In this document: positions 3,675 through 34,280 of the stretch, one piece after another
How positions within the stretch are numbered: the first letter of the stretch is position 1
Layout of the letters: each line of letters starts with the position of its first letter
DNA from: Candidatus Woesearchaeota archaeon
GTDB taxonomy: Archaea > Nanobdellota > Nanobdellia > SCGC-AAA011-G17 > GW2011-AR18
Reading direction: 5' to 3'
DNA length: 40,057 bases
Assembly: GCA_018302545.1 (NCBI GenBank)
Contig: JAGVZM010000003.1
Span: forward strand, 1 to 40,057
The notes under the pieces: generated by a model
What the model was told of the DNA's origin: nothing
What the model saw: only the letters and a program-made list of their open reading frames with translations
The model's database searches: none
Position numbers and translations under genes: made by a program

Positions 3675-3767
3675 GGGCAGGTAATTCAGCCTGGAAACTT
3701 AAAGGTTAGGCAATAGAATGATCGGTTGGCAATCGGTATGCCGTGGGTTCAAATCCCGCCCTGTCCA
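3675..3767 (+). tRNA. tRNA-Ala(GGC) with a 19-nt D-loop intron
   Basis: Acceptor 3675-3681 pairs with 3760-3766 (7 bp) and includes G3-U70, the alanine identity pair; discriminator A3767 is followed by an encoded CCA (3768-3770). D-stem is 3684-3687/3716-3719, anticodon stem 3721-3725/3733-3737 with loop 3726-3732 and anticodon GGC at 3728-3730, and T-stem 3743-3747/3755-3759. The D-loop is 28 nt instead of about 9. Removing 3695-3713 leaves a normal loop and a 74-nt tRNA. The junctions form a bulge-helix-bulge: GCCT 3689-3692 pairs with AGGC 3708-3711, bulges GG^A and AA^T carry the cuts, and an inner hairpin 3696-3699/3704-3707 closes a UAAA loop. Confidence 0.88.
3695..3713 (+). other. Predicted intron of tRNA-Ala (D-loop, about position 19/20)
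   Basis: 19-nt insertion bounded by the predicted cuts after 3694 and after 3713. The 4-bp central helix and two 3-nt bulges match the archaeal splicing-endonuclease substrate, and excision restores the standard loop AGCCTGGTA. Inferred from folding by hand. Confidence 0.8.
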
Positions 3768-4252: not shown

Positions 4253-4325
4253 GCCTCTGTCGTCTAGCGGTCAGGACACGAGTTTCATAAGCTCGATATC
4301 GCAGGTTCAATTCCTGCCAGAGGCA
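4253..4325 (+). tRNA. tRNA with CAT anticodon (elongator Met, or Ile2), no intron
   Basis: Acceptor 4253-4259 pairs with 4318-4324 (7 bp, G1-C72), with discriminator A4325. The anticodon stem CGAGT/GCTCG encloses loop TTCATAA, anticodon CAT. The T-arm is GCAGG/CCTGC around TTCAATT. The 73-nt gene has normal arms and no insertion. G1-C72 argues against the initiator tRNA (archaeal initiators usually have A1-U72). Elongator Met and Ile2 (a C34-modified isoleucine tRNA) cannot be told apart reliably by eye. CCA is not encoded; the dcd gene on the other strand ends at the next base. Confidence 0.9.
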
Positions 4326-11234: not shown

Positions 11235-11831
11235 TTAGGGTCTTAACCATTTTATTTCCCAATAAGTCACATCAGATTCTGCATCCACACAACCAACTAA
11301 CAATCTCTTTCTCGTAGAATGAGCAACCCTATTTTTAGCACTAAATTCATACCAAGTCAATACTTCACCTTCGCTTACAGGAAATACAACCCACTTAGCA
11401 TGGTCTTCTCCAGGTTTAATTCCCCTATCATAAACTCTAAAATCAGCCCCAAATTTCAAAGCAGTCTTAACTATATATCCCCTTCTTCTTAAATCTTTAA
11501 AGACAGCATATCTTGTCCAAAAATTAGGTTCAATTTTTTTAGCTTTTTTAACAAAATTATCAAAGTCTATAATCTTATTTTTATTATCAAATATCTCAAA
11601 TTTGCTTCTCTCAACCAGATACAAAGTTTCAATCAAAGAGTATTGAAATTTCTTGCTTTCTGTAGGTTCACCATACCTTCCTTTATCATATAATTCTCTA
11701 GTTAAATCATTACTATCTGCAATTACAACTTCACCAATTAAAAAAGATTTAACCATTTCTTTAGTTTCAGGAAGTTCTTCACTAGTATCTTTTAGTTTTA
11801 CTAGTTTATCTTTAACCTTAACTTTTGTCAT
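11235..11831 (-). CDS. endA: tRNA-splicing endonuclease EndA
   Basis: This 198-residue enzyme cuts archaeal pre-tRNAs at bulge-helix-bulge motifs. The catalytic triad is complete: Tyr134 in FRVYDRG, His144 in GEDHAKWVVFP, Lys175 in STRKRLLVGCVD. The Y-to-H and H-to-K spacings (10 and 31) equal those of the Methanocaldococcus jannaschii enzyme (Y115/H125/K156). The C-terminal YWEIKWLRP strand is the dimer edge. Size and single catalytic domain fit the homotetrameric type. I see no insertion resembling the crenarchaeal-specific loop, which matters because this window carries non-canonical tRNA introns. The N-terminal 25 residues are Lys/Glu-rich. Confidence 0.93.
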   Translation of the reverse strand: MTKVKVKDKLVKLKDTSEELPETKEMVKSFLIGEVVIADSNDLTRELYDKGRYGEPTESKKFQYSLIETLYLVERSKFEIFDNKNKIIDFDNFVKKAKKIEPNFWTRYAVFKDLRRRGYIVKTALKFGADFRVYDRGIKPGEDHAKWVVFPVSEGEVLTWYEFSAKNRVAHSTRKRLLVGCVDAESDVTYWEIKWLRP

Positions 11832-30294: not shown

Positions 30295-30387
30295 AATTTT
30301 AAATAAGACATTTAGAAATAATTAACTTTTTAAATTGTTATTTTTACTTTTTATCAATGGACCGGTAGCGCAGCCTGGATAGCGCAC

Positions 30388-30417
30388 ACCAACATAGGAA
30401 ATCCTACTTGGGCACAG
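30388..30417 (+). other. Predicted intron 1 of tRNA-Arg (27/28)
   Basis: 30 nt. Inner stem CCAA 30389-30392 pairs UUGG 30408-30411, then UAGG/CCUA around an AAAU loop. Bulges AC^A and AG^U set the cuts. The central helix GCGC/GCAC has one C-A mismatch, so the motif is relaxed. Confidence 0.7.
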
Positions 30418-30427
30418 TTCCCTCCTA

Positions 30428-30444
30428 ACCAAATTGGAGGAGCC
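30428..30444 (+). other. Predicted intron 2 of tRNA-Arg (37/38)
   Basis: 17 nt. Central helix CUCC 30422-30425 pairs GGAG 30439-30442; bulges UA^A and CC^A give the cuts after 30427 and after 30444. The inner stem is only 3 bp (CCA/UGG). Confidence 0.75.
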
Positions 30445-30502
30445 AGGAAGGGGTCGTGAGTTCGAATCTCATCCGGTCCGTATTATCTTATAGATAAAAA
30501 AA

Positions 30503-31678: not shown

Positions 31679-32809
31679 TTAATTATAACTAAATTTGCTA
31701 TTTTTTTTATCGTTGAATTTATAATTCTCATAAAATTCTTTCTTAAATTCTAAAAATCTATTTTCAAGAATTGCTTTTCTAGATTGCTTCATTAGGGTTT
31801 GAATAAAAAACAAATTATGAATATTACCATACCTATCACTTATTGATTCATGTGTTTTATACAAATGATGAATAAAAGATCTAGAGAAATTTTTACAGAC
31901 ATAACATTTACAACTTTCGTCTAGAGGATTTTCATCCTTATTAAATTTGACTTTTGTAATATCTATCTTTCCTTCACTAGTAAATATGCCTCCATGTCTT
32001 GAATTCATTGTTGGATACCTAGAATCAAAACAATCTATTCCTAATTGAATGCATTCTAATAGATCTTCAGGGCTTCCAACACCCATTAGATACCTAGGTT
32101 TATTTTTATCAATGAAAGGAACACTAAATTTAATAGCATTAAACATTAAGTCTCTTCCTTCGCCAATACCCAATCCTCCTAAAGCTACACCATCAAAATT
32201 CAAATCATTGATAAATTTAGCACTTTTCTCTCTTAATTCTTTAAATGTTCCACCCTGGCAAATTCCAAATAATAATTGTCCATTATCTCTATTATAATTT
32301 TTTAAACAACGTTCTGCCCATAAATGTGTTTTCCTAGTGCATTCCATAATATAACTTTCATCTTTACCATAATGGGGAACAAAATCTAAAGCCATTGCAA
32401 CATCACTTCTAATAATCTCTCCAATTTTCATAATATCTTCTGGAGCATAAAATTGTTTTTTACGTGTAAAAGGATTTATAAAATAAACTCCCTTCTCATT
32501 AGATTTATGTAGAAATGTTTTACTTAATATTTGAAATCCTCCAGAATCTGTAAATATTGTTTTATCAAACCTCATAAAATTATGTATTCCTCTAAATTTT
32601 TCAATAACTTCTAAGCCAGGTTTTAGACTTAAAACAAATGCATTAGCTATAATTGCCTCAGTTCCTAAATCTTTAACTTCTTCAGGATTTAGTTGCTTCA
32701 CACTACCCTTTGTTGCGATTGGCATAAAAAAAGGAGTCTTAACTTTTCCATGATTTGTTTCTAATATACCTGCTCTTGCTCCGGAATTTTGGTTTTCTAA
32801 ATTGAACAT
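31679..32809 (-). CDS. tgt: Bacterial-type tRNA-guanine transglycosylase
   Basis: This 376-residue protein has the size and residue numbering of bacterial queuine/preQ1 Tgt, not of archaeal TGT, which is longer and acts on G15. Visible: TDSGGFQ with D88, ALDFVPHY with D142, GICQGG (182-187), GGLGIGEG (211-218), catalytic D262 in FDSRYPTMNSRHG, and zinc ligands C300/C302/C305 with H331. The expected targets are G34 in GUN anticodons. The FVPHYG segment differs from bacterial ECTPYP, so base preference is uncertain. Confidence 0.88.
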   Translation of the reverse strand: MFNLENQNSGARAGILETNHGKVKTPFFMPIATKGSVKQLNPEEVKDLGTEAIIANAFVLSLKPGLEVIEKFRGIHNFMRFDKTIFTDSGGFQILSKTFLHKSNEKGVYFINPFTRKKQFYAPEDIMKIGEIIRSDVAMALDFVPHYGKDESYIMECTRKTHLWAERCLKNYNRDNGQLLFGICQGGTFKELREKSAKFINDLNFDGVALGGLGIGEGRDLMFNAIKFSVPFIDKNKPRYLMGVGSPEDLLECIQLGIDCFDSRYPTMNSRHGGIFTSEGKIDITKVKFNKDENPLDESCKCYVCKNFSRSFIHHLYKTHESISDRYGNIHNLFFIQTLMKQSRKAILENRFLEFKKEFYENYKFNDKKNSKFSYN

Positions 32810-34051: not shown

Positions 34052-34123
34052 ATAATAAATTTAATGAAAGGTTTCTTAAATTTTACTATAAATAAAAAAT
34101 GAGTGCACCGGCCGGGATTCGAA

Positions 34124-34151
34124 ATCCCGAATGATCAAATAAAGACCATTT
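34124..34151 (-). other. Predicted T-arm intron of tRNA-Gly (53/54)
   Basis: 28 nt. Central helix CCCG/CGGG, bulges GG^A and AU^U, and a 7-bp inner stem with a UUUAUUU loop. Removal brings CCGGG next to TTCGAAT and restores a perfect T-stem. The outer helix is weak. Confidence 0.85.
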
Positions 34152-34166
34152 CCCGGGTTATCGGCT

Positions 34167-34197
34167 CTCTACTAAACTTAACAAAAAGTTAAATTAT
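34167..34197 (-). other. Predicted anticodon-loop intron of tRNA-Gly (37/38)
   Basis: 31 nt at the canonical position. Bulges CA^A and AG^A flank a central helix CUUC/GUAG with one U-U mismatch; the inner stem has 9 bp with one bulged base and a U5 loop. Confidence 0.8.
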
Positions 34198-34214
34198 TGG
34201 AAGGCCGAGATAAT

Positions 34215-34234
34215 TTGTGTGGTACTAAATACCT
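34215..34234 (-). other. Predicted D-loop intron of tRNA-Gly (20a/21)
   Basis: 20 nt. Inner stem GGUA/UACC, central helix GUG/CAC plus a G-A mismatch, bulges CU^A and AA^A. Removal leaves an 8-nt D-loop and a 3-bp D-stem. The least certain of the three borders. Confidence 0.7.
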
Positions 34235-34280
34235 AGCCACTATACGACCGGTGCATATATTCTGAGAAAAACCGAAACTA

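Follow-up and report, generated by a model that had tools for sequence, protein, structure and literature searches.

A three-intron tRNA-Gly(UCC) gene in a Woesearchaeota genome with many interrupted tRNA genes and one detectable EndA

The window analysed here is a stretch of 40,057 nucleotides from the genome of a Candidatus Woesearchaeota archaeon (assembly GCA_018302545.1, contig JAGVZM010000003.1). It carries a tRNA-Gly(UCC) gene interrupted at three places, other tRNA genes with and without introns, and a gene for the tRNA-splicing endonuclease EndA:

34104..34254, minus strand: tRNA-Gly(UCC) gene, 151 nt; mature sequence of 72 nt, GCACCGGTCGTATAGTGGCTAKTATCTCGGCCTTCCAAGCCGATAACCCGGGTTCGAATCCCGGCCGGTGCA
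34215..34234, minus strand: intron 1 of tRNA-Gly(UCC), D arm, 20 nt, at 20a/21 as placed by the splice motif
34213..34232, minus strand: alternative for intron 1, still 20 nt, at 22/23 as favoured by relatives
34167..34197, minus strand: intron 2, 31 nt, at the canonical position 37/38, relaxed motif
34124..34151, minus strand: intron 3, T arm, 28 nt, at 53/54, between T-stem and T-loop
34280..34289, minus strand: TATA-box-like sequence TTTATAAA, a reading of the sequence, about 27-34 nt upstream of the 5' end of tRNA-Gly(UCC)
3675..3767, plus strand: tRNA-Ala(GGC), with a 19-nt D-loop intron at 3695..3713 (19/20); CCA encoded
4253..4325, plus strand: tRNA-Met(CAU), without intron
30359..30480, plus strand: tRNA-Arg(CCU), with introns at 27/28 (30388..30417) and 37/38 (30428..30444)
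11235..11831, minus strand: EndA, 198 aa, PF01974, with N-terminal and catalytic domains

Read on the minus strand from 34254 to 34104, the glycine locus starts GCACCGG TC GTAT AGTGGCTA and terminates CCCGG CCGGTGC A, and a normal 72-nt cloverleaf emerges only once 20, 31 and 28 nt are taken out. The mature sequence, in which K denotes U or G at position 22, has a standard tRNA fold with the conserved residues. The 3' CCA is not encoded and, as the sequence reads, a T-run lies immediately 3' of the gene. The locus is missed by ARAGORN and by Rfam at its gathering score, which in the window pick up other tRNAs only; at a permissive threshold Rfam yields a chance match only. A cloverleaf parser was written in which intron jumps are allowed and each is scored by its splice motif. 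It returns the three-intron tRNA-Gly(UCC) with a score of 58.0, against a best of 24.9 among 160 dinucleotide shuffles and no more than 20.4 among 118 random segments of the window. ARAGORN names the spliced 72-mer tRNA-Gly(tcc), finds no tRNA in the unspliced sequence or when the T-arm intron is kept, and calls a wrong tRNA when the D-arm intron is kept. Model R2, which has the spliced tRNA-Gly(UCC) among its sequences, skips three stretches at the same sites as the introns of the parser. Because R2 included the sequence under test, a separate covariance model, R3, was made from four uninterrupted tRNA-Gly(UCC) sequences of other families of the order, this genome being excluded. R3 matches at exactly the ends, 34254-34104, which a first-pass annotation of the window had assigned to one tRNA-Gly(UCC) with introns of these three lengths (37.4 bits, E=4.7e-7 in 53 kb searched, the whole window included). 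The unspliced RNA is predicted to fold far better than shuffles (z = -5.8), and not into a cloverleaf.

All three junctions lie in bulge-helix-bulge or relaxed bulge-helix-bulge motifs. Intron 3 has a central helix CCCG/CGGG with 4/4 pairs, bulges GGA and AUU and an inner helix of 7 bp, and none of 5000 shuffled introns reaches its motif score, which bears out the earlier description of a non-random T-arm intron with this central helix, 3-nt bulges and inner stem. Since the outer helix is almost absent, the motif is of the relaxed HBh' type. Three of the four central pairs form in intron 2, with 23 of 5000 shuffles as good. Intron 1, placed at 20a/21, also has 3/4 central pairs, with 32 of 5000 shuffles as good, and is the weakest motif of the three. 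Its junction has a 2-nt uncertainty, the motif pointing to 20a/21 and homology to 22/23, which affects nucleotide 22 only; the 22/23 reading agrees with L207, an order-mate of another family whose D arm is uninterrupted (GGCTAGTATCTCGGCC), and with other glycine tRNAs. This weak D-arm motif with its junction conflict, together with the incomplete central helix of the anticodon intron, counts against the explanation of the locus preferred below.

This genome was searched together with 25 relatives by a glycine tRNA model, and the parser was then applied to the best sites. tRNA-Gly(UCC) has no intron in L195, L203, L218 and L221, and one D-arm intron each in L200 (22/23), L206 (20a/21), L224 (22/23) and L238 (23/24). 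L207 has a single 24-nt intron at 53/54, with a splice motif (bhb) score of 13.4, and is otherwise continuous, so that this junction, between T-stem and T-loop as first described, is fixed from outside. Thus two of the three sites are used elsewhere, and the gene studied here is a multi-intron tRNA gene some of whose introns are missing from orthologues. All three introns together occur in no other genome among the parsed tRNA-Gly(UCC) sites of the relatives.

The locus is very probably a functional tRNA-Gly(UCC) gene whose three introns are excised, forming part of a genome-wide expansion of tRNA introns. The gene would be transcribed as a 151-nt precursor, from which the splicing endonuclease would cut three short introns of bulge-helix-bulge type (D arm, 37/38 and 53/54). 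The cutter is most likely the single alpha-type EndA encoded in the window, and an RtcB-type ligase would presumably join the exons into the normal 72-nt tRNA. A decayed tRNA pseudogene or chance cloverleaf would account for the failure of standard finders and for the weakness of two of the three splice motifs, but this is highly improbable: the exons agree with functional orthologues, and every stem is paired save for a possible U-U at 13-22 that depends on the D-arm junction. This is moreover the sole tRNA-Gly(UCC) gene found. An intact copy would be expected above 70 bits by R2, and no further match is listed for this genome (G000), a 95.6%-complete assembly, down to 51 bits. The interrupted architecture is also repeated in other tRNA genes of the genome, and the interruption at 53/54 recurs in L207. 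The first-pass annotation had held that a better cloverleaf, or an intact second gene beside a silent locus, would speak against it; no better cloverleaf and no intact second gene were found. That the T-arm stretch is instead a regulatory or guide RNA insert, as its own hairpin might suggest, is barely credible given that its 28 nt keep an exact splice-motif register, that the L207 insert at the same site has a splice motif of its own, and that a mature tRNA requires its removal in the ARAGORN test.

Across the genome, 28 tRNA genes were recognised from T-arm patterns and Rfam hits followed by the parser, and ARAGORN names the expected anticodon for all 28 spliced forms. True genes score 53-68, against at most 30 for 40 non-tRNA pattern sites; matches to the pattern GTNTAGTGG, mostly chance sites, were taken as negative controls. 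Interruptions affect 23 of the 28 genes (82%), and the 39 introns amount to 1.39 per recognised gene in a set that is incomplete, as only stretches round candidate tRNAs were read and the T-arm patterns miss genes with T-loop introns. Sixteen introns lie at 37/38 and 23 are non-canonical (4/5, 5/6, 15/16, 19/20, 20a/21, 21/22, 23/24, 27/28, 29/30, 30/31, 32/33, 36/37, 53/54 and 59/60). Two introns are present in ten genes and three in Gly-UCC, Asn-GUU and Leu-UAA, and the other T-arm introns, both at 59/60, belong to tRNA-Glu(UUC) (65 nt) and tRNA-Arg(UCG) (38 nt). The glycine gene is therefore not the lone oddity it was first taken for, since the same genome has at least two further tRNA genes with three introns, as well as two further introns in T arms. 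Classified by exact register under our own rules, 7 of the 39 motifs are strict bulge-helix-bulge; another 20 count as relaxed, their central helix being complete and one side carrying a flanking helix, and the remaining 12 are weaker. Genomes of this family give fewer R2 matches each (6-17) than those of most other families in the order, a rough hint that tRNA disruption is concentrated in this family. In practical terms, the default thresholds of ARAGORN and Rfam miss or truncate many tRNAs of this genome.

Several other features of the tRNA set deserve mention. The 37/38 introns of tRNA-Asp (L159) and tRNA-Glu(CUC) (L149) are identical at 28 of 30 nt with a local score of 50, compared with a best of 30 from 30 shuffled tables, which suggests the copying of an intron from one tRNA gene to another. 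Large-scale recent intron transposition is not shown, as this was the only convincing pair in an all-against-all comparison. tRNA-Trp(CCA) (L030) has a 62-nt intron at 37/38 in which stretches of CTGA and ATGAT recall the box C/D guide RNAs known from other archaeal tRNA-Trp introns. A tRNA-Arg with an ACG anticodon (A34) lies at G000:C9:147904-147977 (L006/L166), with the two-intron tRNA-Arg(UCG) nearby on the same contig; such A34 tRNAs are uncommon in archaea, and adenosine deamination is normally needed. Within the incomplete set, tRNA-Phe, tRNA-Cys and several other isoacceptors went unrecognised; these may be split genes or carry introns inside the T arm.

The endonuclease is the less expected part of the system. 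A second PF01974 gene was not found in this genome even at E<=10. The single EndA combines N-terminal and catalytic domains with a complete Tyr/His/Lys triad, conserved through the family, as in the alpha4 type, and at 198 aa it differs from the ARMAN-type three-unit epsilon2 enzyme, a fused protein of about 390 aa. Its closest PDB chain is the catalytic subunit of Nanoarchaeum equitans (3iey_A). The acidic L10-like loop, VDAESD, aligns with VDADGD of M. jannaschii, and the Crenarchaea-specific loop, a 9-10 residue insertion with a conserved Lys, is absent by comparison with the catalytic chains of S. tokodaii and A. pernix. Lys59 and Lys60 align at and next to Lys44 of A. pernix, and Lys59 is invariant in eight aligned family members; as the loops of several relatives also keep a lysine, these residues are a lead and not evidence. 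Judged by its sequence, EndA resembles the homotetrameric alpha4 type and lacks the loops that have been associated with broad cutting.

Exactly one EndA gene is found in each of 27 other genomes of the order and none in G012, using the same profile. As a control, two single-contig genomes of the same phylum show adjacent alpha-like and beta-like genes:

196..1079 of L269 (G111): adjacent EndA gene pair
140..999 of L270 (G138): adjacent EndA gene pair

The second gene of G111 is found by the same profile at E=1.3e-4. In both pairs only the second gene carries the acidic loop, the catalytic gene being without it. A second subunit is thus detectable in this phylum, though a very divergent partner could escape a profile search.

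Narrow specificity is reported for enzymes of the alpha4 type (PMC6379350), and this fits badly with the relaxed motifs seen here. Broad cutting has been tied to (alpha beta)2 or epsilon2 enzymes (PMC6379350, PMC12397907, PMC4033280), with the M. kandleri EndA as an intermediate case (PMC6379350). With 7 of 39 strict motifs set against an enzyme that looks alpha4-type, either EndA cuts more broadly than expected of that type, or it has a partner that went undetected. It is conceivable, at a little under an even chance, that a lone alpha4-type EndA without a Crenarchaea- or ARMAN-specific loop removes many relaxed introns, in which case the rule requiring a beta subunit or a loop would fail in this clade and Lys59/Lys60 could substitute. 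A divergent beta-type partner, with which EndA would form a broad-specificity (alpha beta)2 enzyme and no longer be unusual, seems unlikely, and it bears on the enzyme part of the account only. Such a subunit could lie outside the assembly, and distant beta subunits can be overlooked: the Aeropyrum and Pyrobaculum beta chains are missing from the phmmer matches to this EndA. However, the profile that detects an adjacent second gene in G111 and G138 yields one gene here and in the 27 order-mates, and the EndA of the window has an intact acidic loop, unlike the alpha subunits in those two pairs.

The elements of this system are known already. Position 53/54, which the first-pass annotation had considered unusual, is among the listed non-canonical intron positions (PMC4090602), three introns are the published maximum per archaeal tRNA (PMC8450103), and multi-intron tRNAs, thought there to belong mainly to Thermoproteales, also occur in dense sets in Asgard archaea (PMC11291895). 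Its description of the genome as DPANN-like does fit, as some genomes of the phylum have a Nanoarchaeum-like two-gene endonuclease. Mean introns per tRNA gene are 0.21 in archaea and 0.84 in Thermoproteales (PMC8450103). Pyrobaculum, of the latter order, likewise has genes with three short introns, canonical and non-canonical (tRNA-Pro(UGG) of P. islandicum, tRNA-Glu(UUC) of P. calidifontis), and its intron density across the genome is similar, P. calidifontis having 71 introns in 46 tRNA genes (PMC8450103) against 39 in 28 recognised here. It belongs, however, to another phylum and has an (alpha beta)2 enzyme, in contrast to the one EndA gene without the Crenarchaea-specific loop found here, and the sites in P. 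islandicum tRNA-Pro(UGG) (25/26, 56/57 and canonical; PMC4090602) form a combination unlike that of tRNA-Gly(UCC). In the Asgard Atabeyarchaeia and Freyarchaeia (PMC11291895), also known from assembled genomes, most tRNA genes are interrupted, with many non-canonical and multiple introns; these are another lineage, with 92-95% of genes interrupted against 82% of those recognised here. N. equitans (NEQ205/NEQ261) shares disrupted tRNA genes and the nearest EndA structure, but is known for tRNAs that are split and for an enzyme of (alpha beta)2 form, where the present genome has cis introns and one EndA with an intact acidic loop.

No description of a dense intron set with a single alpha-type EndA in this phylum was found in the literature covered, mostly outside subscription journals. 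The glycine gene adds one more lineage to a known pattern, and the genome as a whole is more useful, since its intron density per recognised gene occurs alongside an endonuclease type called narrow (PMC6379350). One small protein and synthetic RNAs would thereby allow a direct test of the standing view that heteromeric or loop-bearing endonucleases and the diversity of introns evolved together.

The window also encodes a tRNA-guanine transglycosylase of 376 aa (31679..32809, minus strand), for which the genome collection gives bacterial hits exclusively, at 38-46% identity. In an archaeal genome this points to possible gene transfer.
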